Shown here piece by piece: positions 8,470 to 57,140 of a DNA stretch of 64,000 bases (position 1 is the first letter of the stretch; the number at the start of each line of letters is the position of its first letter). Under the pieces are notes generated by a model. The model did no database searches. It worked only from the letters and a program-made list of their open reading frames with translations, and was not told the origin of the DNA. The DNA comes from a bacterium (GTDB taxonomy: Bacteria; Cyanobacteriota; Vampirovibrionia; Obscuribacterales; Obscuribacteraceae), in NCBI GenBank assembly GCA_018062085.1, contig JAGOSY010000002.1, positions 124,001-188,000 of the forward strand. The letters are read 5' to 3'. Position numbers and translations under genes: made by a program.

Positions 8470-8865
8470 ATGCCCTGTCCTTGTTGCAGCCAGGTTGTCT
8501 ATCACAAGTGCTGCAAGCCCTATCACGATGGTGCTATTCCTCAATCAGCACTGCTATTGATGCGCTCTCGCTATTGTGCCTATGCCTTAGGGCTGGCTGA
8601 CTATTTGATGAACACTACTCACCCTGATCACCCTGCTTATAATCCTGATTTTGTTGAATGGAAAGCTGATCTGTTGAACTTTTCGAGAGGCACCAATTTT
8701 CACGGTTTGAAGATTCTTGAATTTGTAGACGGAGCAGACACTGCCTCTGTTTCTTTCAGTGCCTACTTGCGCCAAGGCGAGCATGATTCTACCTTCTCTG
8801 AAAAGAGCACATTTATTAAACAAGACGGGCGTTGGCTGTATCAAGCCGGTGAGCTAGCCAACTAA
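8470..8865 (+). CDS. YchJ-family protein (SEC-C zinc motif plus NTF2-like domain)
   Basis: About 131 residues from ATG 8470 (140 from GTG 8443). The N-terminus has CPCCSQVVYHKCCKPYH, a CxCx8CC zinc motif of the SEC-C type, followed by ALLLMRSRYCAYALGLADYL and FHGLKILEF, as in E. coli YchJ. The C-terminal second SEC-C motif of E. coli YchJ is missing, which is common in short members. Likely a small cytosolic zinc protein of unknown function. It follows the YqeY gene directly and ends 9 bp from the convergent TPR gene. Confidence 0.85.
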   Translation: MPCPCCSQVVYHKCCKPYHDGAIPQSALLLMRSRYCAYALGLADYLMNTTHPDHPAYNPDFVEWKADLLNFSRGTNFHGLKILEFVDGADTASVSFSAYLRQGEHDSTFSEKSTFIKQDGRWLYQAGELAN

Positions 8866-8874
8866 ATTCTATGT

Positions 8875-9585: not shown

Positions 9586-9588
9586 TTT

Positions 9589-11046
9589 TTATCGATTAAG
9601 GTCTGGCCAACTCAAGATTTTATTGTCATCAATAGAAGCAAATGGATCTCCTTCAGTTATAGCGGCACCAGTGGTGGTACTTAGATCGTTAAGCTCAAGG
9701 GTAACTGCTCTTAGTTCTTTTATGGTTGGTTTGCTCATTATGTGCCCTTCTACCTCAGCCTTGATTTCACGATTCTGTTCTAGTAGTTTGGCTTTGGTGG
9801 CTAGGTCTTTTTCTTTTGCCAGCTTTTTCATTTTTGCTTTGAGTTGCCGTTCATTTTTTGCTTTTATAATTTTTGCTCTAATTTGAGCATCTGCCGCTAA
9901 GGCATTTGCTAGCTCTTTAATTGCTTCGGCTTGTTTTACCTGCTCACGATAGTTGCGCACATAGGCCAACATCTTGCCAAAATTCCAGGTCATCTGAAAA
10001 TTCCAACCCGTAATATTTGAGTTGGCCGGAAAGGCGAGAATACGCGAATGATTAAGGTCGCGAATGGCTCCAACAAGACACTTATTTAAAACCGAGTCTG
10101 CTGTGCTCGCGTATATGCTGCCATGAAGATTACCTTTTCTATCAATGCTAAAGATAGCGGCTGCTGCACCTCTCACCTGATCTGTCGACTCGGCATTCAA
10201 GCGCTTGAGTAAAACGTGTTGAATAGAGCGTTTGAAGCGGGCTATCCAATAATCCCATTCAGGAGTGTTTTCTGGTGCCTGTGAATAGACAGTCAGACCT
10301 TCGGCGTGACTGGCCCAGGCCGGTACGTTCATAGTTTTGCTTTTCTCTACTAAATCTAGCATTTCGTCCATATGCATAATTTCGGCTGGGCCACTAGTGC
10401 GCCTAGAGCGTGAAGATTGTGATGATTGAGAAGAAGATACACCAGTGGCAGTCTTTATCATTTTTTTGCCGCTGCGAATGGCGTCTTTCATCGAGCCAAA
10501 CAGGTCAGGAATTTCAAAATTTGCTGATGTTGTCGGCTTTTCGCTAGTGCTAGGTTTGTTATTCTCTGGCTTTGTCAGGCCAATAAAGTCAGTCACTGAT
10601 GAAGTCATTTGCGCAAACCAGTCTTTGGGCTTGGCTGGTGCTACTGGTAATAGCGGTGACGCCGCTTTATCTAGTCCCTCTAGTTTCTCCTCGGCAAAGG
10701 CACTAATCATTTCTGGTGGTGCTAAGCGAGCGGCCATTTCTAGCTCTTTGAGGGCCGACATGTCCATGCCCTGTTTCTTCAAGGCGAGGCCGAGGTAATA
10801 GTGTGTTTTGCTGTCTTCTGGGTGTTCTTTTAAGTCAGTGAGCAAAAGGTTTGCTGCTTCGCTATATTTGCCGGCTTTGTAGGCCTTTAGAGCGAGCTTA
10901 ACTGCAGTTTTTGAATCGAGTTTTTGTGCTGGCCTTTTTTCTTCTTTAACTTGAGCGTGTACTTGGTTTATAGGCTGGAGTGAACACAAGGAAACAGTTA
11001 AGGCGATGAAAAAGTTTGATGCTTTAATCAACATTTTTCGGCTCAT
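9589..11046 (-). CDS. secreted TPR protein with TonB-C-like domain
   Basis: 485 residues. A signal peptide ends near QVHA. TPR units lie at about residues 45-125 (ALKAYKAGKYSEAANLLL, THYYLGLALKKQGM). A Ser/Thr-rich linker follows, then at about 270-385 a domain with AAAAIFSIDRKGNLHGSIYA and NKCLVGAIRDLNHSRILAFP, resembling the C-terminal domain of TonB/TolA. A Lys/Glu-rich coiled coil follows (about 385-440). Its ATG overlaps the upstream gene's stop by 4 bp (translational coupling). This suggests a periplasmic partner of the PATAN/GGDEF-like protein encoded first in the operon. Confidence 0.7.
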   Translation of the reverse strand: MSRKMLIKASNFFIALTVSLCSLQPINQVHAQVKEEKRPAQKLDSKTAVKLALKAYKAGKYSEAANLLLTDLKEHPEDSKTHYYLGLALKKQGMDMSALKELEMAARLAPPEMISAFAEEKLEGLDKAASPLLPVAPAKPKDWFAQMTSSVTDFIGLTKPENNKPSTSEKPTTSANFEIPDLFGSMKDAIRSGKKMIKTATGVSSSQSSQSSRSRRTSGPAEIMHMDEMLDLVEKSKTMNVPAWASHAEGLTVYSQAPENTPEWDYWIARFKRSIQHVLLKRLNAESTDQVRGAAAAIFSIDRKGNLHGSIYASTADSVLNKCLVGAIRDLNHSRILAFPANSNITGWNFQMTWNFGKMLAYVRNYREQVKQAEAIKELANALAADAQIRAKIIKAKNERQLKAKMKKLAKEKDLATKAKLLEQNREIKAEVEGHIMSKPTIKELRAVTLELNDLSTTTGAAITEGDPFASIDDNKILSWPDLNR

Positions 11047-12680
11047 GCACTGGGGGTCATGTCTTTGAACATGACTATTGGATAGTTGTTTTTCTGGGCT
11101 ACTACTTTTGCTGCTTTGGCGGCAGCTAGAAGGAGACCAACTTCTTGGCAGTCTTCCGGTATACCGGCCACTCCAAAAGCAAGAGCCAGTTGGCTGAGAT
11201 TGGCCTCCGGGCCAAGACTCCGAGCTCTCAATATTTCAAGAATGCGATGAGCCAATACTGCAGCGGCTTGCGTTTCGGTGTGGGGCAGTAGAATGGCATA
11301 GCTCAATGCCTCAAAGTGAGCAAAGAGATCAAGAGAGCGTTTGGCACCGTTTATGCGGCTAACCGCTTCTTGTAGTGCCGATGGCGTTAGGGCTTTGAGT
11401 TCATTATTGTGCCAGGCCCACATCTCAAATATGATGATCGAATAGGGTATTCGGTACTGTTGAAACCGCTGAAATTCTTGATCAAGAAAATAGTGAAAAG
11501 AGGGATAGGAAAGAATTCCTGTATCGGGGCGAGACAACATTTTGTTGACTCTCTCAATTGCCACGTGATCAATAGGAGTGGCATTTAGCCCAGCTGTTTT
11601 GTCGGTTTTTGCTGGCTTATTCGAGGCAGTAATGAGCTTGGTATTGACTAAATTAAAGAGAATGGGCACCCAGTCTTTTTTAGCCATGGGCGTTTTGCGC
11701 AAAATATCAGCCAATGTGGAACAGCCATCAAGTTGAATATAGAAATATTTTTGCCTGGCCATGTCGACAGGAGCACCGCTGGCAACCCGTTCTTCGAATT
11801 CTTTTTCAGTTAGGCTGCCATCAGCTTTGTTGATGTACGATTCTGATTTTATGCCGGCGGCATCAAGTGTCTTGGTCTGATCAAGAATAGTAATGCCTTC
11901 CATCAGGAGGGCATCAATGCGCTTTGCTACGGTTCTAAGCGGGTTTGTTTCATCGCGGTAGAAATAGAATTTGCCCTTTTCCCAGGTAACTAGTTCTAAT
12001 ACTGCTAAGTCACCTTCTAGACCTTGGGCTGTTGCATGGGTCAGAGCCCCTTCGTAGAAAAATACTTCTGCTCCCGACTGACCATTGTCGACAAATAAAC
12101 AACCAGTCATGCCACCCATGTTGATAGATTGAAGTAAGTTCGGCACTTGCATATCAACTAAGCTGCCTTCCATGGTGGCAACTTTTGAGTTGCGGCTGGC
12201 GTTAGAAACTGGGGCCCGTTGGGTGGAGATCGACTGCATTTTTAGCAGTGTGCTTGTGAAGACGCCACTGCTGTTAATGGTTCCTCTAGCTGAGCTGTTC
12301 ACCATCTGGTTTGAATCACCCAGTGGAAGAGCATCACCGGTACATTCAGCTGTCACCAAGTTGAGAATAAGGCCGACATCGCCACAGGGATATGTCCAAA
12401 TTTCTCTGATTTCCCGCTGGCTACTTTCGGTCAATTCCCAGACCGGTTCGCCACCTAGAGGGCTGAAGGTGCAGGTCAAGGTCAATGTATTTTCGCTAGA
12501 GGGTCGCCCCCAAATTACCTCAATTCTTCTACCAGCACTCGTCTGGGCGTGTTGAAGAGCTTCGGTAACATCTTTGCTTGTTGGCAAAGACTCCAAACGC
12601 GGCAGACGTAGAGGCAGAGTGTTGGGGTCGACTTTGGGGCGGTACATGTTTTGGACTGTATATTGGTTTGGACGGTACAC
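11043..12680 (-). CDS. PATAN (DUF4388) plus degenerate GGDEF protein
   Basis: 545 residues, no signal peptide. The middle (about 170-265) is a PATAN/DUF4388 domain (MEGSLVDMQVPNLLQSIN, GCLFVDNGQSGAEVFFYEGAL). The C-terminal 155 residues have the GGDEF fold pattern (LSYPSFHYFLDQEFQRF, FEALSYAILLPHT, AFGVAGIPED), but the GG(D/E)EF loop is replaced by AHFEALSY. It therefore cannot make c-di-GMP, although it might bind it or act as a scaffold. PATAN domains are response-linked adaptors in cyanobacteria. First gene of the three-gene operon; the stop overlaps the next ATG by 4 bp. Divergent from its paralogue at 12829. Confidence 0.78.
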   Translation of the reverse strand: MYRPNQYTVQNMYRPKVDPNTLPLRLPRLESLPTSKDVTEALQHAQTSAGRRIEVIWGRPSSENTLTLTCTFSPLGGEPVWELTESSQREIREIWTYPCGDVGLILNLVTAECTGDALPLGDSNQMVNSSARGTINSSGVFTSTLLKMQSISTQRAPVSNASRNSKVATMEGSLVDMQVPNLLQSINMGGMTGCLFVDNGQSGAEVFFYEGALTHATAQGLEGDLAVLELVTWEKGKFYFYRDETNPLRTVAKRIDALLMEGITILDQTKTLDAAGIKSESYINKADGSLTEKEFEERVASGAPVDMARQKYFYIQLDGCSTLADILRKTPMAKKDWVPILFNLVNTKLITASNKPAKTDKTAGLNATPIDHVAIERVNKMLSRPDTGILSYPSFHYFLDQEFQRFQQYRIPYSIIIFEMWAWHNNELKALTPSALQEAVSRINGAKRSLDLFAHFEALSYAILLPHTETQAAAVLAHRILEILRARSLGPEANLSQLALAFGVAGIPEDCQEVGLLLAAAKAAKVVAQKNNYPIVMFKDMTPSA

Positions 12681-40389: not shown

Positions 40390-40452
40390 AGCTTATGTAC
40401 TGGCTATTTGCTACAATTTTTGGGCCCCTCAGTTCTATGTTGCTTGCAATCA

Positions 40453-41151
40453 ATGTCTAAAGCTTTAGTAGTTTTTTCTGGTGGTCAAGACAGTACCACT
40501 TGCCTTTATTGGGCCAAACAACGTTTTGATTTAGTGCGGGCTCTGACATTTGATTATGGTCAGAGGCATCGCCTTGAGCTTGTCAGTGCTCGAACCATCG
40601 CCCAGATGGCTGGTGTGGAGCAAGAAGTAATAGAGTTGGGTAAAATCTTTGCTGGTTTAAGCCCCCTTACTGATCTCTCTAAGCCGGTTGAGGCCTATGA
40701 TGGCGTCGAGAGCTTACCTCAGGGCATTGCCTCTACTTTTGTGCCGGGACGCAATATCTTGTTTCTTTCGGTGGCTGCAAACCGTGCCTATGTCTTGGGT
40801 TGCGACACTGTTGTAATTGGAGTGGCAGAGCAAGACTTTGGCGGATATCCTGATTGTCGCTTAGAGTTTATTGAAAAAATGCAGGCAGCTCTAGCCAGCG
40901 GTTTAGATGCGCCGCTCACAATTGCAGCCCCACTGATGAATTTGACTAAAGAGGATACTGTTGTCCTGGCCCAATCTCTGCCTGGCTGTCTGGAGGCCTT
41001 GGCTTATTCCACCACTTGCTACAACGGTGTATGCCCGCCCTGTGGCCATTGTAATTCGTGCTTACTGCGAGCAAAAGGCTTTGAGCAAGCTGGCATCAGT
41101 GACCCCTTGCTTAGTCTAGTTCAGTTAGCTGAGGAAGTGAAAAGTGGATAG
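40453..41151 (+). CDS. queC: QueC, 7-cyano-7-deazaguanine synthase
   Basis: 232 residues from ATG 40453. The PP-loop SGGQDSTT, RALTFDYGQRH, STFVPGRNILFLS and the zinc-binding C-terminal CYNGVCPPCGHCNSC are diagnostic. It uses ATP and ammonia to turn 7-carboxy-7-deazaguanine into preQ0. A strong ribosome site is not evident, and 63 bp separate it from queF. The 3' end overlaps queD by 8 bp. Confidence 0.97.
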   Translation: MSKALVVFSGGQDSTTCLYWAKQRFDLVRALTFDYGQRHRLELVSARTIAQMAGVEQEVIELGKIFAGLSPLTDLSKPVEAYDGVESLPQGIASTFVPGRNILFLSVAANRAYVLGCDTVVIGVAEQDFGGYPDCRLEFIEKMQAALASGLDAPLTIAAPLMNLTKEDTVVLAQSLPGCLEALAYSTTCYNGVCPPCGHCNSCLLRAKGFEQAGISDPLLSLVQLAEEVKSG

Positions 41152-41587
41152 TAAGCAAACTATCTCAGCTGTTCGCAAGTTGCAGTTTTGTGCTGGGCAT
41201 CGTCTATATCAACACGAATCAAAGTGTCGCCATCTTCATGGCCATAACTATAAAGTTTTTCTCCATGCTCAATCTACTTCTAACTTAGATCAAATTGGTC
41301 GAGTAATTGATTTTTCTATATTGAAAGGGCGTTTCTTGCCCTGGATTGAAGAGAACTGGGACCACGGGTTCATAGTTTGGCAAGGCGACCTAGAAGCAAT
41401 TGCCGCATTAAGGGCAATACCAGATCAGAAACTATTTTTACTTGATAGCAACCCCACAGCCGAGAATCTGGCTCTTTATCTACTCAATCAGGTGGCTCCA
41501 AAACTCTTAGCAGAAACTGACGTGAGTATTTCTAAGATTGTTCTCTGGGAAACAGAGAACTGTTTTGTTGAAGTTACAACTGCATGA
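41144..41587 (+). CDS. queD: QueD, 6-carboxytetrahydropterin synthase
   Basis: 147 residues of the PTPS/QueD T-fold. Zinc His ligands are in CAGHRL and HLHGHNY; DFSILKG, PTAENLALYLL and WETENCFVEV follow. It makes 6-carboxy-tetrahydropterin from dihydroneopterin triphosphate. GTG 41144 is chosen because GAGGAAG lies seven bases upstream. It overlaps queC by 8 bp and queE by 4 bp. Confidence 0.95.
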   Translation: MDSKQTISAVRKLQFCAGHRLYQHESKCRHLHGHNYKVFLHAQSTSNLDQIGRVIDFSILKGRFLPWIEENWDHGFIVWQGDLEAIAALRAIPDQKLFLLDSNPTAENLALYLLNQVAPKLLAETDVSISKIVLWETENCFVEVTTA

Positions 41588-42300
41588 GAGGCGATAATCC
41601 ACTACGTCCCCAAGAATTAAATGATGGCCATCTTTGGGTGCAAGAAGTTTTTTACACGCTTCAAGGTGAAGGCCCCTTTACTGGTCAGCCAGCAGTGTTC
41701 GTTAGGTTGGCCGGTTGCAATCTTTGTTGCTTCTGGTGTGATACTGAATTTGAGTCTTCTGATTGGCGGCCTCAATTGCCCGAGCTAATGGCCGCTATCG
41801 AGAAAGTGCGTCCGCCATTTTGTCAGCTAATTGTCCTTACCGGTGGTGAGCCCTTTCGCCAGAATATCGGACCTTTAGTTGAGAGCGTGCTTGCTCTCAG
41901 CGACAAGCTCATTGTGCAAATTGAAACGAATGGCACACTTTATGTTGATTTGCCAGATAGTAGTCGCATTCATATTGTCTGTAGCCCTAAGACCAGTGCA
42001 CTGAATCAGCGGCTTTTGCCCAAGATCAGTTCGTATAAGTATCTCATTGCCGCTGGTCAGTATGATAACGGCGATGGTTTGCCGCTTGAGAGTACTCAGA
42101 AGGTCGGTGAGAGCATGCGCATAGCCAGGCCAGCTCAAGCTTTAGTGGCGGACGCTGGTGAACCTTCTGTCTTTGTCATGCCAATTGATACAGGTTCTGT
42201 TGCTGGAAGTTGTGCCAACACCCAGGCCGCAGTTGAGGTGGCCCTAAATTTCGGTTATCGCCTCACTCTGCAAACCCACAAGATAACTGGTATTCCCTAG
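41584..42300 (+). CDS. queE: QueE, 7-carboxy-7-deazaguanine synthase
   Basis: 238 residues, radical SAM. C45-x3-C49-x2-C52 in GCNLCCFWC binds the 4Fe-4S cluster; FYTLQGEGPFTGQPAVFVR and VLTGGEPFRQ are typical. It rearranges carboxytetrahydropterin to carboxydeazaguanine. The ATG overlaps the queD stop. The last 38 bp overlap the convergent PD-(D/E)xK-like gene. Confidence 0.96.
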   Translation: MRGDNPLRPQELNDGHLWVQEVFYTLQGEGPFTGQPAVFVRLAGCNLCCFWCDTEFESSDWRPQLPELMAAIEKVRPPFCQLIVLTGGEPFRQNIGPLVESVLALSDKLIVQIETNGTLYVDLPDSSRIHIVCSPKTSALNQRLLPKISSYKYLIAAGQYDNGDGLPLESTQKVGESMRIARPAQALVADAGEPSVFVMPIDTGSVAGSCANTQAAVEVALNFGYRLTLQTHKITGIP

Positions 42301-45697: not shown

Positions 45698-48600
45698 TTG
45701 GCAGACGATAAAGCTACCGTCGTGAAAGATAAGCCCAAAGAGGGTGAAAAGCCTGGGGAGAAAGAGTCACATCTTGCTCCTGAACTTCTTGGTAAGGATA
45801 GCTTAGCGATTCTGCGCACTGCTGACAAAACCGGCAGTAAAGCTAAAGCAGATTTACCGGCAGTGGAACTCTTCGATTCATCGAGAAATGGCGGAGCAAA
45901 TGCCGCTGCCAAGACCGAGGCAGGCAAGCCTGAGCTCGTTAAGCATGAAGTCAAGAAAGGCGATACTCTCAGCCATATCGTCGAGAAACATTTGCCGAAG
46001 AACGAGGGTGAGAGTGCTCGTGATTACAATAAGCGCCTCTATTCCGAGGTGGGCGAGGTCGCCCGAAAGAATGGTATTGCCGACCCAGACAAGATTAAGC
46101 CCGGTCAGAAGATTGAGCTGACGGATCACACTAAACCAGCCGTTAAACCGGCTGATCAGCCAGCAGTTAAGCCTGAAGGTCAAACCACAGTTAAGCCAGG
46201 GGATCAGCCAGCGGTTAAGCCCGCCGATCAGACGACAGTTAAGCCAGGAGATCAGCCGGCGGTAACGCCTCCAGCCGAGCTGCCTCAAGAACCAGTGAAG
46301 AAACCTGTTGATGTTGATGCCATGCGCAAGCAGGCTGAGGTGCTCTATAACGCCACAGAGGGCAAATGGTTTGGCGCCAACGAAGTCTTAGCCAAAGAAG
46401 TTTTGAAAAATCTCAATGAAGATCAGCGCAAAGTCTTAAATGAAGTCTATAAAGACAAGCACGGCAAGAATATAGACGAAGTTCTTCGCTCAAAATTGGG
46501 CGGTAAAGATTTGACTGAGTCTTTGACTTACCTAAATGCCAAAGATAAAGTTTCGGGAGCTGACCTTGGTAAGGCTGAGCGAGTTGCAGAAGCAATTGAT
46601 CAGGCCGCCAATGGCGGATTTCTTGGCATAGGTACTGACAAGAAAACAATCGAAGAGCTGCTGAAAGGCAAGTCAACTGATGAACTGAAGGCTATTGATG
46701 CAGCCTACAGCGCTAGAACGGGTCATAGTCTCAAGGATGAACTGGTAGACGAGCTATCTGGTTCTGATCTGACTAAGCTCACGGCCATGGCTGAAGGCAA
46801 GAATGATGATGCCGCTCGTATCAATGCTGTTCTAGAAGAACACAAAGAATGGGGCATTGGTGCTCGTTCTAATGCTAACTGTGAAAAAGATCTGCGCGAT
46901 ACGATTTCGACCTTGAATTCGCAACAAATTGAGGCTCTAGATAAGACCTACCAAGAGCGCTACGGCAAATCGTTGCGCGAAGTTCTGCAAAATGATGATA
47001 ATTTGCCCAAAGAGACCAAAGATGCCCTAAGCATTTATCTCAAGGGCACTGACAAAATGACTGCGGCCGATACTTTGGCTGTAGCAGACATTGCCATGAG
47101 GTCACAAAACTTGGACATGTTCCAAGAAGCTTTCCGTGGCGCATCGCCTGAAGCGCGGGCGCAGTTCTTGCAAAATGGCGGTGAGCAGAAGGTCAATGAG
47201 GCATTTGGCTCAGCTTCTAGCAATGAATACAGTACTGAAACTACCTACAGCACTAATAGTGATACCACCCATGCGATGGATTATGTTAGAGCTGGTAAGT
47301 TAGATGCCTCTACCAAGATTGCTGACAACACTAGTGCTTTTGGCGATAACGAAGAAGCAATCGAAGCCTCATTGGCTCAAATGAGCGCTGCTGAAAAGCA
47401 GTCTTATATGGCCGGCCAAAAGCTGGCGAGCGGCGATACTGCTAATCTAAATTCTGCTGACAAGGCAAATCTTGAGTACTACAACAAGATTCATAGCGCT
47501 TTAGATGCGGCTGGCAATGAGCGCGAAGTCGCAAAATGGGAAGACATGATTGCCACTGGTAAAGATGGCAGTTTGGTGACAAGATTGGCTGCCCATGGCG
47601 GTATGTTCGATGATGGCATGGGCAAAGTGCTTGGTACCATTGAGAGCATGCCGAAAGAAGATTGGGAAAGACTAAAGAGCGATCCTGAGTACCGCAAGAA
47701 AGTTGAGGCCACTCTTGCTATCGATTTGAGCGATTCTGAAATGGCTCGGACCCGCGAAGCTCTAGACAAAAAAATGCAAGCTCCTACCTATGAAGCTAGC
47801 AAAGAAGCGCAGCGTTCTGTTGTTGATGCCATAAAAGACGAAACTGGATTCTTCGACGACAACGAAGACAACATCATTCGTGCCCTGGAGAAAATGACTC
47901 CAGAGGAGCAAAAACGCTATAGAGAAGACCCTGAATTCAAGAAACAGCTCAATGCCGAAGTGGCTAGTGCCTTAGATTATGGTTCTGAACGCGATGCGGC
48001 TATGCGTATTCTCGACAAAGTAGCAAAGGGCGAAAAACCCGAATCTGACATTGTCGCCAAGCTCGAGATGCATTCTACCAACTTCAATGTTGATGAGGCT
48101 AAAGTTGTTGCCGACCTAGAAGAAAGTTTCCGCAAAGACCCCACTCTTCGCGATCGTCTGCGCAATCCGCAAACGCCTGAAGACAAAGACATGGCAGAGA
48201 AGTTCAATACTGCTATACACAAAGCTCTTGACCAAGATGAATATGATAAATTTGCTAAACCGCTGTTAGAAACCGGTCGTATACCACTTGCAGTAAAAGC
48301 TGAGCTTTACCAAGGCCTCTTTAATGACGATGAAAAAGCTGTTTACGATGCCTTAAAGAAAGATAGAGCCACTCCTGAAGATTGGAAAGAAGTGATTGCC
48401 AATCCGGAGAAGACTCTAGGGTTCATGTCTGTCGAAGAGCGCGAAGTAGCCTTGAATATTGCTCGCCAGCAAGGTGAAATGAAGCCTGAAGATGAGCTGC
48501 GGGCCGCCATGCTTGGTGTTGGTAAGGACGAAGACAAAATCAAGGAAGTGCTCAAGGGCTTTACTCCAGATCAACTGCAGGCTGCCAAAGACGCTTATGA

Positions 48601-51600
48601 AGTTAAGTATGGCTCAAGCCTTACGGGCGATACCCTAGACGAACTCGGTGGCGCTGATAAAGTTGAGGCAGCCCGCGAACTGCGCGGCCCTCAATCAGCG
48701 CGTGAGTCATACAACGATGCCCGCTCTGAAGTATACGAGAGTGCCGACGGCATTGGTAAGTTTATAGTCAAGCACTGGGATGGCACCAGTGAAATGACTC
48801 AAGATCAGCTTGAACAGTACTCTAAAGCCATGGGCGACTATTCTAAGGCCTATCAAGAGATGCCTCTAGAAGGTCGGCAGCAATTCGAAGATAATCTCTA
48901 TAAGTCACTTGAACTCTATAAAAAGTCAGAGGGTGCCGCTGCTGACGCCATTGTTGACGGAGCCATTATTGCCGCTGGTGTTGGCGGAGCTGCCTTCACC
49001 GGTGGTGTGAGCTTGTCTCTACTGGCTGCCACCAGTGTTGGCGGTGCAATGTTCAAGATTGGTGCTAAGTCAGCAATTCTTGGAGCCGATTATGACTTTG
49101 CCAGTGCCCAGATAGTTAAAGATGGTGCTACTGGTGCCATTGATGCTGCTACTATTTTCTTAGGGCCCGCGCAAGCCGCTCAGATGCTTAAACTGGGCGA
49201 GCGAAGCGCATTGACTGCAGCTCGCGCGGCAATGTCCGAAGTGGACAATGTCGCTGTCTTAGGCGGTAAACAGCTTCTCAAAGAGGGCGCTGAAGGTACT
49301 ATCAAAAAAGAACTAGCTGAGCAAGTGGCAGTTGCTATTTCGAATGGTGCTAAAGGCGTTGACGATAAAGCAATTGCTAAAATTGCTGAAAAAGTTGCCG
49401 CTGATGCTGTCGATGTACCGCAAATTCAGCAAATTCTTAAAGCAAATCTTGCCAAAGCAATTGAGACCGAAGCTTCTGCTGGTCTCAAAGCTTCAATGAG
49501 AGAATATGCACTGAATACTGGCGCTGGTGTTGTCGGCGGTTCACTTTCAGGTGGTGTACGCGGTGGCGTTGATGGTGAGTCATTTGACGCAGTGGCTCAG
49601 CAAGCCTTTATGGGTGGCCTCTCGGGCGGTGCTATGGCTGGTGCTTTCACAGTCGCCTTTAAGGGCTTGGGTCGAACCGCATCGGTCTTCCGCAATGCTG
49701 ACGGTCCGGATGTTCATACTAGTCCAGTAGGATCTCTGGAAGTTAAAGCTGTTAGTGCCGCTTCTGAAGTTCATCCGCCTAAGTTAGACCGCAGTGGTCG
49801 CATTGCCGAAGTGATAACACCAGAGGGCAAGTTGTCTGTTGCTTATCACAAAGCTGGTGATCTTGAAGGTGAGGTACGAAAGGTCACTTTCCCTAACGGC
49901 AATGTTTATAGCAGTGAAGATGGGGTTAAGTGGACTGTTAAAGACCCCGCCGCCCCTGGTGGCAAGTATGAAGTCAACGGTTCGATGAAGGTTGATGCAG
50001 AGGGTGGTGTCACATGGCACGCTGAAGGTGGAAGTAAGTCAACTCTTCGTAGCGATGGATCGCGCATAATTGAAGATAAGCATACAGGCGATTTAGTCAC
50101 CACCGACGCGCTTGGTTATGTGCGTGAAGTGAAAAAAGATAACTCTGGTGTCAAATTCGACTATGACCATGATGGCCAGGTTCAGAAAGCTAGTTTCGAC
50201 AACGGCAGTGTTATTGATGTCAAAGCCGATGGTAAGGTCGTGCAGACTAAAGCTGATGGCACAGCTGTTGATCTAGACGGAAAGCTCAAGGTCAATAATG
50301 ATGGCCAACTAACTCTTACTGCTGCGGATGGTCGTGCTCAGGTGCTGACTCCTGAAGGTGCGCGTCTTCAATATGACGGTGATAGTAATAGAGTCAGTGA
50401 TTTTTGGAATGCCAAAGGTGATCACTATCGCTACGAGTATAGTTCGGCTGGTGAATTAGATAAAGTGACCTTGCCTGATGGCAAAGGCTTGAAACGAGAT
50501 CCTGCAGGCGGATGGCAGCATATTGATTTGGATGGCCGGGTCAATGGTGCCACCACCACCGAATACAAAGTTTTGAGTGATGGTTCTTTCAGTTACTCAC
50601 AGGGTGACCGCAGTATAACCTTTGGCTTGGACGGTCATGAAAGAGTCTACGATACTACTAACAATAAATTACTAATTGAAAGAGGCATTGATGGCCAGGC
50701 GCTGAAGTCGAAAGTTGAAGTTGGTGTTGATGGACGGCCGCTTGAGTTCCAGGAAAAGGTTAAAGAGAAGTTCGTCGTTCAGAACGCTGAGAGCAAAGAG
50801 AAATCGCTTGCTCTTGTTGCTAGCGAATTGAAGGATGTTCGCGCCATTGATGCCAACGGTAAACCAAGTAGCGCCTACGATAGTTTGATGTCTGACAAGA
50901 CACTGACAGATAGACAGAAGCAAAATATTCTCGACAACATGTCTGAAATCAGAGAGCACTTTGCTTCATATCGAGTTGGCGATCGCATGCATCCAGACCC
51001 TGAGGTCAATTGGATTCACACCCAGGGCGAAATGGCCAAAGTGTTAGAAGTTGGTCGCAAGGCTGGTCTTAAGCCAGACGAACTAGAAGATGCTCTTCTT
51101 GCTTCGATGTATTCTGATTCTGTCAAATTTGCCTTCCCCCCACCGAAGGGTGCTGAGGCTAACTTCTTCACCCACCATCTTGATGGTGCTTTAGCTGCTC
51201 AAGAATCACTGACACGCAAAGGCTTCCCACCTGAGCGCGTCGACCGTATCGTGCAAGCAATCAAAGAGCACCAAATCGCTCCGCCTGAATTTATGGGCAA
51301 TCTCTATCTCAACTTTAAGATCAAGCCCGGTCTTGATGATTTAGCTAAGAAAGGCACCATTACCGCGGAGCGCCATGCTGAACTTACAGCTGTATTGAAA
51401 GATATGACAGTAGTGGGTGAGGATGGGGTTTCTAGACTTAAACCAATTGCCAAAGTCAATGACTGGCCTAAAGTTCGCAATGCCGACGGCAGTTGGGAAG
51501 TTGCCCTAACTCCTGATCAGCGAGAACTGTTTAAATTGGCCGGCATTGAGCATTGGTCTACACCGGTCAATCCAGTCGATACACCCGGATTCAAGCAGCT

Positions 51601-54283
51601 TTCCAAAGTTGAGCAAGACGCTCTGGTTAGCAAGTATCAGATCGCAAGTACCTTAATCGATGGTGATGGTGTAGACAACTATGCCACTCTGGGTGGTGCC
51701 AGTAAAATTGTTGCAATAAGAGGCCCTGGAACATTCTTTAAAGATGGCAATGTCTGGCAGTCAATTGATTCGATTGACGCTAGCTTCAAAGATACTTACT
51801 CGGTTCTCTCACCTAAAGGCCGTGAAGTTGCCGATGCCAGTTTGGCCCAACGCAACGCAATGTTGCACGACAAGCAGTCTGGAATCAAGGCCCAGATGAA
51901 TGAGTGGCTGAAGTCTAAGGGCTTGAATCCAGAAGAAGTAGTTTATTTACAGAAAGATGGTGCTCTTAAGTATCCGCGCCCACTTGATGACGCCGCTACA
52001 TTGCGTGTTAGTGAAATAAATGCGCTCCTGAAAGACAACAAGATTCCTGCCTCAGAGATTGCCAGTCTCACAAGTGAACTGCGAACTCTTAAACATCGCG
52101 GCATGAACGAAGAAGAAATTCGTCAGTTTGAATTGGCTAGTGAAGTTAGAGAGAAAATGGTCGACTTGCTTAGATCTGGTCACCGCACCGATAACTCGCT
52201 TCCTGGCGAGTTTCATCAGGTCAAGAGCGAGGCCAAGACTCACCCTGAGTGGTTGGAGGCCAAGCCCTTCATCGCCCCTGAGCCAACTGGTAGAGCCAGA
52301 GATTTTGGTGATGGCACCACCGTAACTACTTACAAAGACGGCGTTATCGTAAAGGGCGCTGATGGTTCTTCAGCCGTTGTCGATAATGTACACAATACTT
52401 CCGTTCGTCACAATGCTCTCGGCCAAGTTACTGAAGCCCATGGTGTCAATGGCAAGCGCGCCTTTACTTATGACTCTGAAGGCAAGCTAAATACAGTCAC
52501 TTTTGAGAATGGCGCCGTTGTTAAGAAAGAAAACGGTGTGTGGATGGGCCATGTGAAACAGGCTGATGGAACTTCCAAGGACGAAGTTTGGTTCAGGGGC
52601 GACCTGGTTGCCGATGGAGATGGCAGCATCCGTTCTTTTCATAGCATTGATGAAAAAGGCACGGTTACAATTGACTCAATCAACGGCTCAAAAATGGAGC
52701 TTACTGGTGATAGGCTCGACTATCTCAGCGCTAATTTAGCCGTAGAAGAAGCTAACCTTTCTCGCCTCTCCGCCAAGGCCTTTCCTGATGTAGCGCGCTT
52801 TGAACGGTTTGACAAGTTACTCAGAGACTTTGATGTTGAAGCTGCTAAGCGTGGTATCACTGATGAGAAAAAAGCGCTTCTATATCTCCATGTCAATCGC
52901 CTGCTCGAAGCAAATCCTATGGCAGTGTTGTCGCAGGCAGAGAGAGCCGACCTAGCTGAACAGCTGATGTCACACGCTGTTCATCCACGGACCGTCGACC
53001 AGGGAATGAACAGCACCTGCAACGTCACGACATTGGAAGTGCGTAATTATGCTAAAGATCCCGAGAAGAATGCGCAGCTTTTGGCTGATATAGCTATCAA
53101 TGGTAAGTTTGTCACCAAAGATGGCCATACTGTCGACATGACGGCCTTAGATAATGGTATCAAACCAGACTTTGAGGCTCGCAGAGCCCTTAAGCGCCAG
53201 CATGGTGAGGGCGATAAGCTCAAGGCCGACGGCAGTAGAGATTGGTCGAGCCAACTGACTGAAAATGCTATGGTTAATGCTTACTGGCAGGGCCGTAAAC
53301 ACATAATTAGTGATGGTCGTCGGGTTGATAGTAGTGGTCTTGCCTTTGACAAAGATCGTAATTTGATTGGCAAAATCAAGAGCAAATCTGAAGTACAGAT
53401 GCTCTATGACAAAGAAGGCGATCGCTTAGCCCAGTTTAAGCCTGGAGATCAGGCTTACACTAAAGATCATAAACCGATCAAGAATGTTGATGCCGATAGC
53501 TTGATTTACTCTGAGAATGGTGCTCTGTACGGTGTGCTACCAGAGAAGAAAATTGACAAAGTTTTTGATAGTGCTGGTAAGCAACTGCGCAATTTGGAGC
53601 CTGGTGCGACTGCCTATGATGCTGATGGTAAGCTGGTTATGCGTGTCGCTAAACCGGGCGAAATTAAGTATGAAAAGAGTGTTGATAGTTTGATGGGTGG
53701 AGAAAAGGTCAAATACTTTGACGGAGAAAATTGGGTGCAATTGCGCGACCGCAATGGCTCGAAAATGGATGCTCCCAGTATCTTCACCAATGAGCTAGAA
53801 GGCGTGAACAAACAAGCAACGGGTGTGAGTGACAATCACTTCGTTCTTACTGCCGGTGATAAAGCCAAGCAATGGTCTGGTCAGAGAGATGTAAGTACTG
53901 CAGATGAGCTTGCCGATGCTATTCTTGAGCTTGAGAAATCAGGCCAACTTCCTGCAGTTATGCAGGTGCACACGGCAAGACCGCCATTTTCTCAACTCTA
54001 TGGCATAGAGTCTGCTGTGGGCATGGGTGGTGGTTGGCATGTGATTAACATCCACGGCTACGATCCAGTAACGCGCCAGGTTAAGTTCACAAATCAGTGG
54101 GGTAGCAGAAATGACTTCCTTGAGGAGGGCTATTCTGTTGATAAACTCTTCCGCTCAATGAAGGAACCAGCAATGCACAAATTTATGCGTTCAACTGGAG
54201 GGAAAGTGGTAAAAGGTACCGTGGCTGCCGGAGCCGTGGTTTACTCAGGCGTTGTGGCTCATGACAAGTTGAATAACCGTTGA
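45698..54283 (+). CDS. giant modular protein: LysM, annexin-like repeats, YD/RHS-like repeats, C-terminal cysteine-peptidase-like domain
   Basis: 2861 residues from TTG 45698 (the preceding in-frame stop is at 45692). Order: LysM (about 82-140, HEVKKGDTLSHIVEKHL); 8-residue Pro repeat KPxxQxxV (about 146-190); nine or ten annexin-like repeats (about 212-997, for example GTDKKTIEELL, DDNEDNIIRALEKM); a Gly-rich hydrophobic module (about 1080-1331); YD/RHS-like strands (about 1345-1690, FDYDHDGQVQKASF); an HD-like helical segment (about 1775-1865, FTHHLDGALAAQE); more YD-like strands (about 2190-2330); and a calpain/papain-like end with C2441 (QGMNSTC), H2781 (GGWHVINI) and N2799 (FTNQWG). There is no signal peptide. 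It looks like a secreted or cell-wall-bound effector. The function is not known. Confidence 0.8.
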   Translation: MADDKATVVKDKPKEGEKPGEKESHLAPELLGKDSLAILRTADKTGSKAKADLPAVELFDSSRNGGANAAAKTEAGKPELVKHEVKKGDTLSHIVEKHLPKNEGESARDYNKRLYSEVGEVARKNGIADPDKIKPGQKIELTDHTKPAVKPADQPAVKPEGQTTVKPGDQPAVKPADQTTVKPGDQPAVTPPAELPQEPVKKPVDVDAMRKQAEVLYNATEGKWFGANEVLAKEVLKNLNEDQRKVLNEVYKDKHGKNIDEVLRSKLGGKDLTESLTYLNAKDKVSGADLGKAERVAEAIDQAANGGFLGIGTDKKTIEELLKGKSTDELKAIDAAYSARTGHSLKDELVDELSGSDLTKLTAMAEGKNDDAARINAVLEEHKEWGIGARSNANCEKDLRDTISTLNSQQIEALDKTYQERYGKSLREVLQNDDNLPKETKDALSIYLKGTDKMTAADTLAVADIAMRSQNLDMFQEAFRGASPEARAQFLQNGGEQKVNEAFGSASSNEYSTETTYSTNSDTTHAMDYVRAGKLDASTKIADNTSAFGDNEEAIEASLAQMSAAEKQSYMAGQKLASGDTANLNSADKANLEYYNKIHSALDAAGNEREVAKWEDMIATGKDGSLVTRLAAHGGMFDDGMGKVLGTIESMPKEDWERLKSDPEYRKKVEATLAIDLSDSEMARTREALDKKMQAPTYEASKEAQRSVVDAIKDETGFFDDNEDNIIRALEKMTPEEQKRYREDPEFKKQLNAEVASALDYGSERDAAMRILDKVAKGEKPESDIVAKLEMHSTNFNVDEAKVVADLEESFRKDPTLRDRLRNPQTPEDKDMAEKFNTAIHKALDQDEYDKFAKPLLETGRIPLAVKAELYQGLFNDDEKAVYDALKKDRATPEDWKEVIANPEKTLGFMSVEEREVALNIARQQGEMKPEDELRAAMLGVGKDEDKIKEVLKGFTPDQLQAAKDAYEVKYGSSLTGDTLDELGGADKVEAARELRGPQSARESYNDARSEVYESADGIGKFIVKHWDGTSEMTQDQLEQYSKAMGDYSKAYQEMPLEGRQQFEDNLYKSLELYKKSEGAAADAIVDGAIIAAGVGGAAFTGGVSLSLLAATSVGGAMFKIGAKSAILGADYDFASAQIVKDGATGAIDAATIFLGPAQAAQMLKLGERSALTAARAAMSEVDNVAVLGGKQLLKEGAEGTIKKELAEQVAVAISNGAKGVDDKAIAKIAEKVAADAVDVPQIQQILKANLAKAIETEASAGLKASMREYALNTGAGVVGGSLSGGVRGGVDGESFDAVAQQAFMGGLSGGAMAGAFTVAFKGLGRTASVFRNADGPDVHTSPVGSLEVKAVSAASEVHPPKLDRSGRIAEVITPEGKLSVAYHKAGDLEGEVRKVTFPNGNVYSSEDGVKWTVKDPAAPGGKYEVNGSMKVDAEGGVTWHAEGGSKSTLRSDGSRIIEDKHTGDLVTTDALGYVREVKKDNSGVKFDYDHDGQVQKASFDNGSVIDVKADGKVVQTKADGTAVDLDGKLKVNNDGQLTLTAADGRAQVLTPEGARLQYDGDSNRVSDFWNAKGDHYRYEYSSAGELDKVTLPDGKGLKRDPAGGWQHIDLDGRVNGATTTEYKVLSDGSFSYSQGDRSITFGLDGHERVYDTTNNKLLIERGIDGQALKSKVEVGVDGRPLEFQEKVKEKFVVQNAESKEKSLALVASELKDVRAIDANGKPSSAYDSLMSDKTLTDRQKQNILDNMSEIREHFASYRVGDRMHPDPEVNWIHTQGEMAKVLEVGRKAGLKPDELEDALLASMYSDSVKFAFPPPKGAEANFFTHHLDGALAAQESLTRKGFPPERVDRIVQAIKEHQIAPPEFMGNLYLNFKIKPGLDDLAKKGTITAERHAELTAVLKDMTVVGEDGVSRLKPIAKVNDWPKVRNADGSWEVALTPDQRELFKLAGIEHWSTPVNPVDTPGFKQLSKVEQDALVSKYQIASTLIDGDGVDNYATLGGASKIVAIRGPGTFFKDGNVWQSIDSIDASFKDTYSVLSPKGREVADASLAQRNAMLHDKQSGIKAQMNEWLKSKGLNPEEVVYLQKDGALKYPRPLDDAATLRVSEINALLKDNKIPASEIASLTSELRTLKHRGMNEEEIRQFELASEVREKMVDLLRSGHRTDNSLPGEFHQVKSEAKTHPEWLEAKPFIAPEPTGRARDFGDGTTVTTYKDGVIVKGADGSSAVVDNVHNTSVRHNALGQVTEAHGVNGKRAFTYDSEGKLNTVTFENGAVVKKENGVWMGHVKQADGTSKDEVWFRGDLVADGDGSIRSFHSIDEKGTVTIDSINGSKMELTGDRLDYLSANLAVEEANLSRLSAKAFPDVARFERFDKLLRDFDVEAAKRGITDEKKALLYLHVNRLLEANPMAVLSQAERADLAEQLMSHAVHPRTVDQGMNSTCNVTTLEVRNYAKDPEKNAQLLADIAINGKFVTKDGHTVDMTALDNGIKPDFEARRALKRQHGEGDKLKADGSRDWSSQLTENAMVNAYWQGRKHIISDGRRVDSSGLAFDKDRNLIGKIKSKSEVQMLYDKEGDRLAQFKPGDQAYTKDHKPIKNVDADSLIYSENGALYGVLPEKKIDKVFDSAGKQLRNLEPGATAYDADGKLVMRVAKPGEIKYEKSVDSLMGGEKVKYFDGENWVQLRDRNGSKMDAPSIFTNELEGVNKQATGVSDNHFVLTAGDKAKQWSGQRDVSTADELADAILELEKSGQLPAVMQVHTARPPFSQLYGIESAVGMGGGWHVINIHGYDPVTRQVKFTNQWGSRNDFLEEGYSVDKLFRSMKEPAMHKFMRSTGGKVVKGTVAAGAVVYSGVVAHDKLNNR
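46133..46264. repeat. 24-bp in-frame tandem repeat (KPxxQxxV)
   Basis: Five copies of an 8-codon unit (KPADQPAV, KPEGQTTV, KPGDQPAV, KPADQTTV, KPGDQPAV) form a stiff linker between LysM and the annexin-like repeats of the giant protein. Confidence 0.9.
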
Positions 54284-54299: not shown

Positions 54300-54815
54300 A
54301 TGAATAAGACTGCCTTAAAATTGAAGAATCAAGGACAAATTAAGTCTATGGAGCTGCCCGACGGCTGGGTAGAGTGTCTATTAGAGAAACGCACCGCCAC
54401 TGATTTTTTAAGAGAGTTTCGAGCGCAAGAAAGTGCCGAGGTGAAGTTGTCTTTTTATTATCGAGGTAAGCGCATTGCTCCTGATGGTGCCTCCGATTTT
54501 CTCAAAGTATTGTCTCAACCAGACCATGAGCTGTCAGAGGAAGAATTTAGTTCTGTAGATCTTGTCGTCAGAAACGCATCTGATCCTGATTTCTTTTTGC
54601 TTAGTTCTAGCCGTACTGAAGAGCTAAATGGCAAGCGTGTTTTAATCGTCGAGGGTATTTGGAAGAAAGGTGGACTAGTCGATATGGGACTATTTATCGA
54701 CAGCGATAAAACTGGTTCAGCAGTGCAAGAAATTCATTTTGAAGCCCCACAAAGTGAGTACGAGCTTTTTGTTGATCAAGTGGAGAAGTCTTTAAAGACT
54801 ATAGTTTGGCTCTAG
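54300..54815 (+). CDS. small acidic protein after the giant gene (candidate immunity protein or chaperone)
   Basis: 171 residues, acidic, no signal peptide. The pattern (MELPDGWVECLL at about 18-29; GKRVLIVEGIWKKGG; a C-terminal helix EYELFVDQVEKSLKTIVWL) resembles the PsbP/DcrB/DUF1795 fold, which includes Eag chaperones of Rhs effectors, but the match is weak by eye. It starts 16 bp after the giant gene, and its stop overlaps the next gene by 10 bp. The position fits an immunity protein or a chaperone. Confidence 0.6.
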   Translation: MNKTALKLKNQGQIKSMELPDGWVECLLEKRTATDFLREFRAQESAEVKLSFYYRGKRIAPDGASDFLKVLSQPDHELSEEEFSSVDLVVRNASDPDFFLLSSSRTEELNGKRVLIVEGIWKKGGLVDMGLFIDSDKTGSAVQEIHFEAPQSEYELFVDQVEKSLKTIVWL

Positions 54816-55906
54816 ATAAATTTGGAATTGCGAAAATGCCGTTAAGACCAGAACAAGACAATAGTAAAGATAGTAAGGTCGAAGCTGCAGTGGCTGACAG
54901 CAGTGCGCCGCTATTGCAAGAGTTCTGGCAGTCTCTCAAGTACACTGCCATTCAGCAGCCTTATGATGGCATTTCGCAGGCTGTAAATCATTTTGGTGGC
55001 AACATCGCCAAGCGTAACCTGGTTGACGCCCCTGATGTTGCTGAGGTTGGCTCTTCTCAATGGATAGCTCAACAGGCTGGGTCTGGTGTGGCTAAACTTG
55101 GTGGCGTTTTGCTGATGCACAGAGGAGTGAGCTTTGCTGGTGCAGCTATTGGTGCCAGAGCTTCAACTGTCGCTCTAGGTGAATCGGTAGCGACTGGTCG
55201 CGTCACCGTGGGTAGTTTGGCAACTGCCGGGGGCCTTTACGAAGGCCTTGTCACCAAATCTGGTGAGAATTTCTGGACAGATAGATTGGGTAGTGCTGGA
55301 ATTGGCGGCACTTCTATGTATATTATGGGCAAGGCGCAGATTGGTATTCAAGGCCTAAGTAGTATTAAGAGTATGGCTTCTCATTTGCCAGAAGGACTTT
55401 CAGGCACGGTGGGTCGACAGCTGATGAATGGTGCTAGCGGATTTCTAGCTGGAGCTGCTGGTGGCGCATTCAGTGCCGAGGCTAGTTCTCTCTTCAAGCA
55501 TGGAAAGTTGGCAACAACTTCAGAGCTGGCTGAGAAGACTCTTTCAAGTGCTGTCATGGGTGGTGTCTTTGGCACAGTGACAAAACCTGCTTTGGAGAAC
55601 GTTGTCAGCCCTCAGCGCACTGGTGCTCTGCCAAGCTTGCATTTAGAGCAGTTACCAGTGCGTACTGGCCCTGTCGTGAGCAAACCGGCTGAATTGGGTC
55701 CAGATGTTTCTCTGCTTGTGTCTAGCACTGCTGTTAAAGCTCATAGTCCGAGCTTGCTAGATGGGCTGAAATTGCGTACATCCGAAGTGCCAGGAGTGGG
55801 CACGTTACCGAAGGTGGCAATTGACCCCTTGCCAATTTTTAAACCAAAGCCTGTGTCTAAGGATATTCCACCCAAAGTTACCGATTTGCACACCCCTGGA
55901 ACTTAA
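54806..55906 (+). CDS. hydrophobic-module protein in the giant-protein operon
   Basis: 366 residues from TTG 54806, overlapping the previous gene by 10 bp. Residues about 30-270 are a Gly/Ala-rich module with glycine-zipper-like stretches (GVAKLGGVLLMHRGVSFAGAAIGA, split here; GFLAGAAGGAFSAEASSLF). It is collinear with the start of the glycoamylase-family gene at 15-17.3 kb: AIQQPYDGISQAVNH against ALQAPVDGLTQLVNH, and GGAFSAEASSLF against GGAVSAESTSLL. The tail is Pro-rich without an enzyme domain. It may anchor, insert or help deliver the giant protein. Confidence 0.65.
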   Translation: MALDKFGIAKMPLRPEQDNSKDSKVEAAVADSSAPLLQEFWQSLKYTAIQQPYDGISQAVNHFGGNIAKRNLVDAPDVAEVGSSQWIAQQAGSGVAKLGGVLLMHRGVSFAGAAIGARASTVALGESVATGRVTVGSLATAGGLYEGLVTKSGENFWTDRLGSAGIGGTSMYIMGKAQIGIQGLSSIKSMASHLPEGLSGTVGRQLMNGASGFLAGAAGGAFSAEASSLFKHGKLATTSELAEKTLSSAVMGGVFGTVTKPALENVVSPQRTGALPSLHLEQLPVRTGPVVSKPAELGPDVSLLVSSTAVKAHSPSLLDGLKLRTSEVPGVGTLPKVAIDPLPIFKPKPVSKDIPPKVTDLHTPGT

Positions 55907-55946: not shown

Positions 55947-57140
55947 TTGAAAAGTATGCATGAAGAGAGCACCGAGTCTCTTCTCAAAAGAAAAGAAGCT
56001 TTAGATACCTTCCTCACTAATTGTGCTCTGGCTGGAATTGAACCGCCTGAGAGCGACGCTGCTGCCTTTGTGGAAGTACAATCTGAGTTGGCTACCCGTG
56101 ATCTCAGTGGGGTGCCAGCAAAGCCAAAGTCATGGACAAATTGGCTCGGTGTCAAAATTGATGGCTTTATGCTAAACGGTCAAATTTCTAGTGGTCGTTT
56201 TTGTTTTCTCTTTCATGCCGAAGATGAGTTTGGCAACGAAAGAGTCTACAAAGTAGCTAAAGATCCAAGCGACATAGCCGAGCCTGAGAAATTTTCTACG
56301 CAAGCACTCAAAGTTATTCCTTTTCAAACTGGACCGGTTACACCAATTCCAGACCAGATGATGCAATTGCAGCTGACCCGTTTGATAGAGCTAGCCGGGC
56401 CCTTGGTGGTGCCGGTTGAGAGCAGTGGAGAGTGCCAGGAGCGCGCCTATTATTCAATGCCTGTATTGCGCGGCCTAACGTTGCGCCAACAGCTCGCTGA
56501 AAGAGAGATGTCGCAGAAGCAAATTTTGGCGCTGTTTCACTTGCTTGCCAGTTTTATGGAAGCCATGCCCAATGCCTATCATGGTGACTTAACTCCTGAC
56601 AATATTTTTATTGAGTGCGACGAAAATGATGACGTCAGTGGTATCAGATTACTTGACCCGGGTTATTTTGGCTCTTTGCATTGCTTAGAAGGCGAATTTG
56701 ATACTTGCATGATTTCGACACCGGCTTATTATCCTCTGCTTGTGCCCGATGATTTGATGGCAGTTGGTATTTGTATGTGGGAAGCACTAACTGGTGTTCA
56801 TCCGCTTACGAGCAAACCAGTTGCCCCTAATTCGCCTATTAGTGCGGCTCAAGACCTAGTTGATTTGATCAACTTTAGAAATTCGCTTTTGCAGCCTTAT
56901 CTCACGCCGCTTATGAATGTTGTTTTGCCTTGTGACTTAAATAGTGAGATCAATGCTCAGCTGCAGTCAGCAATTCTTTCGTGCATGCATTTCCGCCTGG
57001 ATGAGAGCCGAAAAATTGCAATAGACAACGGATTTGAAGGCTTTGCTCAACTAAGAGTTGAATTAGCTGCTTTGATAGGCGAAGTTGATTTGGAGACGCC
57101 TGAGGCCGCACAGGCCCCACAGACTGATTTCTCTGTTTAG
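55947..57140 (+). CDS. degenerate Ser/Thr kinase-like protein
   Basis: 397 residues from TTG 55947 (AAAGG 11 bases upstream). The kinase fold is visible: a loop ISSGRFCFLF, lysine in VYKVAKD, the catalytic-loop equivalent YHGDLTPDN (D214; the usual Lys is Thr) and DPG in place of DFG (D237). LLVPDDLMAVGICMWEALTG follows. The changes suggest a pseudokinase or a weak kinase. No membrane segment. It closes the run that begins with the giant gene and lies 17 bp from the convergent beta-barrel gene. Confidence 0.7.
   Translation: MKSMHEESTESLLKRKEALDTFLTNCALAGIEPPESDAAAFVEVQSELATRDLSGVPAKPKSWTNWLGVKIDGFMLNGQISSGRFCFLFHAEDEFGNERVYKVAKDPSDIAEPEKFSTQALKVIPFQTGPVTPIPDQMMQLQLTRLIELAGPLVVPVESSGECQERAYYSMPVLRGLTLRQQLAEREMSQKQILALFHLLASFMEAMPNAYHGDLTPDNIFIECDENDDVSGIRLLDPGYFGSLHCLEGEFDTCMISTPAYYPLLVPDDLMAVGICMWEALTGVHPLTSKPVAPNSPISAAQDLVDLINFRNSLLQPYLTPLMNVVLPCDLNSEINAQLQSAILSCMHFRLDESRKIAIDNGFEGFAQLRVELAALIGEVDLETPEAAQAPQTDFSV

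Follow-up and report, generated by a model that had tools for sequence, protein, structure and literature searches.

What is the function of a bacterial protein that carries an array of annexin repeats and a putative cysteine peptidase in a single chain of 2861 residues? The question is raised by an open reading frame (ORF) in a 64,000-nucleotide stretch of DNA from a member of the Obscuribacteraceae (hereafter, the window), whose host genome comprises 5.83 Mb in 80 contigs and is 88% complete. An annotation made without database searches (the sequence-only reading) had described the product as polymorphic-toxin-like, and had suggested a large effector or a predation/adhesion factor.

A modular protein of the Obscuribacterales

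The 2861-residue ORF lies intact at the position given in the sequence-only reading, uninterrupted from a TTG start (Table 1). Because 23 relatives align with the protein end to end and colinearly, at 37-86% identity, a chance ORF can be ruled out. These relatives belong to the Obscuribacterales, which are non-photosynthetic cyanobacteria, and one recovered in the protein search (P0015) carries the name Candidatus Obscuribacter. Among the 22 named loci that encode the C-terminal peptidase tip, 19 are labelled Obscuribacter, Obscuribacterales, Melainabacteria or Cyanobacteria (L029 is Candidatus Obscuribacter phosphatis EBPR_351), and the remaining three are labelled unclassified bacterium (twice) and Actinobacteria (once). 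When 60 related genomes were searched, matches were found in 35 of 36 genomes of the same family and in all three from another family in the order, and in none of the 21 genomes from other families of the class.

A promoter scan of the locus gave candidates that did not rise above those in shuffled sequences, and terminators fell within about 1.4 sd. A PADLOC defence-system search with three proteins returned no match, and a defence-system reading was dropped on that account. Elsewhere in the window (40408-42300), genes for QueC, a PTPS-family protein and a radical-SAM protein stand in a row and probably form a queuosine (7-deazaguanine) cluster.

Table 1. Features of the 2861-residue protein and the genes that follow it, with positions in the window.
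Feature	Position	Strand	Basis
Annexin-array protein with predicted papain-like protease domain, 2861 aa	45698..54283	+	TTG start; 23 colinear relatives
LysM domain, residues 83-140	45944..46117	+	Pfam PF01476, 1.2e-4
Pro/Lys/Val-rich linker repeat, ~residues 147-200	46136..46297	+	Translation; mean identity 0.46 over 151-200
Predicted annexin-fold array, ~residues 206-1027, with ten to eleven repeats and a type-II-like calcium motif at two sites (first residues 310 and 940)	46313..48778	+	Pfam; predicted models
Gly-rich hydrophobic helical module, ~residues 1079-1345	48932..49732	+	Translation; hydropathy scan
First beta (YD-like) stretch, residues 1346-1650	49733..50647	+	Mean identity 0.49; without Pfam RHS repeat
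Predicted HD/phosphodiesterase-like fold, ~residues 1690-2081, with Ser1806 in place of the signature His	50765..51940	+	Predicted model
Second beta stretch with the sole RHS/YD repeat, residues 2177-2345	52226..52732	+	Pfam RHS_repeat; mean identity 0.42
Predicted papain-like peptidase tip, residues 2337-2831	52706..54190	+	Own-genome paralogs; profile comparison with Peptidase_C1
Gln2435, candidate oxyanion-hole residue	53000..53002	+	Gln in 35/35 peptidase domains
Cys2441, candidate nucleophile, opens a predicted helix	53018..53020	+	Cys in 35/35; model helix 780-792
His2781, candidate base, within a predicted strand	54038..54040	+	His in 33/33 that reach it; model strand 1119-1128
Asn2799, candidate third residue, just past the next predicted strand	54092..54094	+	Asn in 30/33, Asp in 2, Gly in 1; model strand 1133-1137
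Partner gene (171 aa), putative matched inhibitor/immunity protein	54300..54815	+	Adjacency; co-divergence
366-aa Gly-rich ORF, begins inside the end of the partner gene	54806..55906	+	Relatives follow the partner in L022-L029
397-aa protein, weak protein-kinase similarity	55947..57140	+	Pkinase E 0.11, below cut-off; follows in L023-L025, L027, L029

The LysM domain, the Pro repeat and the Gly-rich hydrophobic module of the sequence-only reading were all recovered, the first by Pfam and the other two as features visible in the translation. The Gly-rich module holds the only stretch that exceeds 1.4 in a 19-residue hydropathy scan, beginning at 1080-1099; model confidence is low past model residue 900, in the region of this module.

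Pfam identifies Annexin in four stretches (4.7e-23), and predicted models support an annexin fold for the array. The model places 53 helices within model residues 17-838, and since an annexin repeat has five, the number of repeats is nearer ten to eleven than the nine or ten proposed before. The type-II calcium site of annexin repeats has the form GxGT...E. Only two type-II-like motifs were found by pattern; a Glu stands 42 residues after each (352 and 982), and 17 of 24 relatives have Glu at each position. Further annexin proteins were seen in the surveyed DNA. A 2,452-residue annexin protein of the host genome (L009:1814-9172) ends in an HExxH domain, and the partner family described below was absent from its fetched surroundings. 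Another annexin-module match (G016:C1:154685-156709) falls inside an open frame 18,420 codons long, and in L028 the annexin/HD part and the peptidase part occupy two overlapping ORFs (4036-9606 and 9461-11590), a split or frame-shifted copy.

The HD-like segment that had been proposed was borne out in its fold and not in its signature. Predicted models support an HD/phosphodiesterase-like fold, the same as that of HD-domain and class I cyclic nucleotide phosphodiesterases. The signature of the HD family is a His-Asp pair, whereas here the pair is Ser-Asp, with Ser1806 in all 24 sequences in place of His and Asp1807 in 23 of 24. A stand-alone 533-residue HD-like paralog (L010:2904-4505) has Ser-Asp too, and many related genomes contain matching ORFs of this kind.

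The HD-like domain is flanked by the two beta stretches, which bear on the possibility, toward which the sequence-only reading leaned, that the protein is an RHS-type toxin with its C-terminal tip encapsulated in a shell. One RHS/YD repeat is indeed present (Pfam RHS_repeat, 6.8e-8 at 2238-2273; YD_repeat_2x in NCBIfam), so that the YD/RHS-like strands stand in part, and a Foldseek search with model 1 gave weak matches to Rhs and teneurin chains. However, none of its matches reached E <= 0.001, the beta stretches span only about 305 and 169 residues with the HD-like domain between them, both rank among the four modules, out of nine, with the lowest conservation, and no type VI secretion system (T6SS) sheath was found in 38 genomes (see below). 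We have therefore rejected an RHS cage as the main reading, and consider it extremely unlikely. We interpret the HD-like and beta modules as a spacer or scaffold.

The C-terminal domain is predicted to be papain-like

The sequence-only reading had placed C2441, H2781 and N2799 in calpain/papain-like contexts. The three positions were exact, and none of these residues varies among the 24 full-length sequences in the alignment. To these can be added Gln2435, giving Gln, Cys, His and Asn in order and in papain-type contexts, as in clan CA. A profile of 35 peptidase domains was compared by hhalign with one of 13 Peptidase_C1 domains (13 of 14 papain loci, L054 being left out), which gave a probability of 89 and a score of 50.8. 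The main alignment set HVV..DYD..NQWG on HAV..GYD..NSWG, with H2781 on the His and N2799 on the Asn of papain, and a second, weak alignment (probability 0.3) set DQG...TC on NQG..SC. When columns were shuffled, with match columns only, none of 200 shuffles reached 50.8 (maximum 20.2), and the reversed profile scored 12.7; an earlier control that kept insert columns had given spurious scores far above the real one in two of 60 shuffles, an apparent gap artefact.

The predicted model points the same way, in that C2441 opens a helix, H2781 is part of a strand and N2799 comes just after the strand that follows. In papain, Cys, His and Asn are placed likewise at a helix start, in a strand and after the next strand. 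No known family of cysteine peptidases was matched by sequence: Pfam peptidase families gave nothing in ten members of the tip family at E <= 10, and none of the solved structures was related to the tip in sequence. Fold searches included no papain chain among the matches listed, a viral structure library gave no match at E <= 0.001, the host genome held no Peptidase_C1, and a comparison with C39 was set aside because it covered only 14 columns at a probability of 19. The papain-like assignment of the sequence-only reading is supported by the profile score and the conserved quartet, and we predict that the domain represents a papain-like family without a Pfam match.

The host genome contains ten strong copies of the domain, including that of the window, plus weaker matches, two of which (C5:54063 and C23) lie outside the examined set. 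ORFs with a peptidase score below 100 bits were left out of the set of 35, among them a 3,982-residue protein (L019:1678-13626) in which a GGDEF domain (2e-21) occurs with a peptidase-like stretch of low score (48.8 bits); L025 was dropped as it shares a contig with L022. Around the papain-like paralogs of the host genome, a patatin-like phospholipase with a Gly-rich N-terminal part (L017:1305-3110; Pfam 1.8e-8) directly precedes one (L017:3163-4464). Three papain-like paralogs (L011:947-2533, L013:5146-6969, L014:750-2561) lie near proteins that share a similar N-terminal membrane segment and, judged by eye, resemble sensor kinases.

A small partner gene accompanies the peptidase

The 171-residue ORF begins 16 nt past the stop of the large gene. 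Its product has no Pfam match and belongs to a multi-copy family. The loci that we fetched contain 21 members, 20 of them distinct, and 18 of these start at -91 to +27 nt relative to the end of a peptidase ORF, which several of them overlap by 4 nt or 1 nt; the other two are a tandem second copy and an orphan. All ten distinct loci of the long type, the window included, have the partner. Because the fetched loci were chosen through the peptidase, a genome-wide search is a fairer test. With the two families searched separately in nine genomes, 22 of 34 partner hits had a peptidase hit on the same strand within the 800 nt upstream of them, against a chance expectation of about 0.02 by our own arithmetic on genome sizes. 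The 12 hits not within 800 nt include one tandem second copy, at 992 nt. From the side of the peptidase, a partner accompanies 23 of 68 hits in the nine genomes, 18 of 35 distinct ORFs in the fetched loci and five of the ten strong ones in the host genome. The partner is also found behind small peptidases that have no annexin, Gly-rich or HD-like module, which indicates that it goes with the peptidase.

The partner could not be placed in a known family. None of 44 members in the large protein set has a Pfam domain, comparison of 18 members with Pfam brought no family to E 0.01, and the matches obtained in Pfam and PDB were weak and scattered, none of them to an inhibitor already known. The 366-residue ORF that follows the partner shows no similarity to the Gly-rich module of the large protein.

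One hypothesis for the role of the partner is that it is a chaperone or activator for folding or loading of the peptidase, rather than its inhibitor. EagR-type proteins act in this way for some T6SS effectors, and a small, co-directional gene that often overlaps the peptidase gene would be in keeping with it. However, half of the peptidase genes have no partner, it also follows peptidases without the hydrophobic module, and DUF1795 was among the families that none of the 18 members reached at E 0.01. We regard this hypothesis as quite improbable.

Tips and partners diverge together

Several close relatives differ sharply in their C-terminal parts. P0009 and P0010 are 99-100% identical in each 100-residue block over residues 1-1600, and identity then falls to 85-88% over 1601-2100 and to 50-79% over 2101-2800. 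P0008 is 93-99% identical to both as far as about residue 1300, where a drop begins. The candidate catalytic residues are kept in all three tips. This pattern, a strongly divergent C-terminal domain behind a near-identical N-terminal part, is that of polymorphic toxins. Among the other close relatives, most lack this drop, and their tips are conserved like their shells.

The partner changes with the tip. With the pairing presumed from contigs of equal size, and with the linked partners P0065 and P0067 being representatives of many contigs, identity between P0008 and P0010 is 0.97 in the annexin shell, 0.60 in the tip and 0.68 in the partner, and between P0008 and P0011 it is 0.85, 0.81 and 0.84, respectively. 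Over 11 sets of shell, tip and partner, the partner-tip correlation with the shell removed was 0.67, a value reached by none of 5000 permutations, and the partner-shell correlation with the tip removed was 0.50; the partner thus tracks the tip more than the shell, and not exclusively. Peptidase and partner identities are correlated at 0.94 over 18 pairs, and at 0.45 over the 123 comparisons in which peptidase identity is below 0.4. Shell and tip identities, with the truncated P0018 and P0020 left out, are correlated at 0.78 overall and at 0.02 for pairs with shell identity below 0.5. One interpretation is that tips are swapped among divergent shells, for which the signal in these alignments is mixed. 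The tip diversification and the matched downstream gene, evidence new to this analysis, support the earlier description of the protein as polymorphic-toxin-like.

A second kind of tip was found among 55 shell proteins, a set biased by its query, the window protein. Annexin, HD-like and papain-like parts are combined in 36 of them, annexin and HD-like parts in five, annexin, HD-like and HExxH parts in five, all four in four, annexin, papain-like and HExxH parts in two, annexin alone in two, and annexin and papain-like parts in one. The HExxH domain, which we take to be zincin-like, keeps its motif in 11 of 11 members and had no Pfam match in the one scanned. FHA, papain-like and HExxH domains occur together in P0041 and P0044.

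These arrangements bear on whether the papain-like domain might cut only its own chain, thereby freeing other modules. The partial text of PMC3482391 describes papain-like domains as releasing peptidases in some polymorphic toxins, and four P0021-type and two P0041-type proteins have an additional HExxH module. In the window protein, though, only about 30 residues lie past the papain-like domain, the stand-alone paralogs consist mainly of that domain, and a separate partner would not be needed. Pure self-processing is thus very unlikely in our estimate.

Delivery

No signal-peptide-like hydrophobic stretch was found in 36 N termini, two of them truncated (highest 15-residue hydropathy, 0.84). 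Neither the phage-type sheath (PF04984) nor TssC (PF05943) was detected in any of 38 genomes, and VirB4 (PF03135) was detected in one, which is not the host genome; each family was detected in at least one control genome. Cargo of an eCIS/PVC or T6SS was rejected for want of a sheath family in the 38 genomes, and cargo of a type IV secretion system (T4SS) because VirB4 was confined to that one genome. These searches turned up no delivery route, and they lend no support to the predation/adhesion factor that the sequence-only reading had suggested. Melainabacteria have been described as diderm, according to the portion of PMC4040986 available, and use of a T4SS has been proposed for the predator Vampirovibrio in the corresponding portion of PMC4451040.

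Discussion

The explanation that we favor, and to which we give about an even chance, is that the 2861-residue protein is a membrane-docked protease effector and that the 171-residue protein is its matched inhibitor, that is, an immunity protein. It draws on the intact ORF, the Gln-Cys-His-Asn pattern, the profile similarity in papain register, the linkage between peptidase and partner genes and the joint change of tip and partner. The annexin-fold array would hold the protein on membranes, where the C-terminal domain, with its predicted papain-like activity, would cut proteins. The product of the gene encoded 16 bases downstream would shield the producing cell. Export may occur by a leaderless route, or the protein may be released on lysis. 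Weighing against this explanation are the searches that turned up no delivery machinery beyond VirB4 in one of 38 genomes, the mixed signal for tip swapping among divergent shells, the conserved tips of most close relatives, the half of the peptidase ORFs that have no partner, and the fold searches that listed no papain chain.

The main rival is that the protein is a calpain-like regulated protease of the cytoplasm. The annexin array would bring it to the inner membrane of the producer itself on a calcium or lipid signal, the 171-residue protein would be a regulatory inhibitor or subunit, and no warfare would be involved. The 36 sequences without a signal peptide and the 38 genomes without a phage-type or type VI sheath are in accord with this proposal, as is an upstream Ser/Thr kinase that is 91-92% conserved in L020 and L021. 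The FHA domains listed for P0041 and P0044, and the GGDEF domain of the 3,982-residue protein with the weak peptidase-like stretch, also fit a cytoplasmic role and count against an effector. On the other hand, the N-terminal LysM domain and the exchange with an HExxH tip count against this proposal, and sharp divergence of the tip behind a near-identical shell is unexpected for a housekeeping regulator. We judge the cytoplasmic role to be unlikely, while giving it real weight.

Should the effector reading be correct, one could go further and envision a conflict system in its own right, in which a conserved carrier of ten or more annexin repeats bears exchangeable papain-like or HExxH tips, the papain-like tip and its antidote gene vary as a single cassette, and the annexin array provides delivery without an injection machine. 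We put this forward tentatively, as a possible and somewhat doubtful extension. If true, the locus would add a family of papain-like peptidases that has no Pfam model and a matched partner family without an assigned function, and annexin repeats, which are best known from eukaryotic membrane trafficking, would carry a bacterial weapon. It would also open to experiment the question of whether annexins of bacteria can tether a cargo to membranes, or shift it there, when no purpose-built injection machinery is present, and the locus would give a handle on the biology of the Obscuribacterales, which are known mainly from metagenomes. Our literature search found no paper joining Obscuribacter and annexin, and a broader one had none joining Melainabacteria and annexin among the matches listed.

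Comparison with known systems

With RHS/YD polymorphic toxins, the window protein shares one YD/RHS repeat, a diversified C-terminal tip and a downstream partner gene, but it has no shell of RHS length, and no PAAR or T6SS context was found.

The annexin toxins of Haliangium and Microscilla, of the PVC/eCIS type, resemble the window protein in architecture. In the available portions of the sources, PVC-type toxins are described as having an annexin domain followed by an enzymatic toxin domain (PMC3482391), and bacterial annexins as occurring with metalloprotease or toxin domains (PMC3894181). The order of annexin and C-terminal enzyme, metallopeptidases included, is thus the same as here, and breaching of membranes has been proposed there. 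As described in those portions, the Haliangium and Microscilla toxins have a single annexin domain, a PVC-metallopeptidase and PVC delivery, whereas the protein described here has ten to eleven repeats, a predicted papain-like tip, a partner family of its own encoded downstream and, in 38 related genomes, no phage-type sheath.

Other parallels concern the peptidase and its neighbor. Secreted papain-fold proteases in the staphopain-staphostatin, SpeB-Spi and Bacteroides C10-Bfi systems are, in the partial texts of PMC3462683, PMC4490255 and PMC7863939, encoded contiguously with a small gene, as here, and the inhibitor guards the cytoplasm. Unlike those enzymes as there described, the present protein has no signal peptide and resides in a carrier of 2,861 residues. 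Its partner, at 171 residues, compares with 116-138 for the Bacteroides Bti proteins in the same texts, and its sequence matches none of the known inhibitors in Pfam or PDB. The proposed effector and immunity pair also resembles, by description, the papain-like protease toxin Cpe1 and its immunity protein Cpi1 (PMC12136450). In the part of that paper at hand, Cpe1 is delivered by a T6SS or by CDI, and neither an annexin array nor an HD-like fold is among the features given for it. The two systems have in common a papain-like catalytic pattern, an adjacent downstream gene of immunity-protein size (79-239 residues in that system) and a correlated divergence of partner and peptidase.
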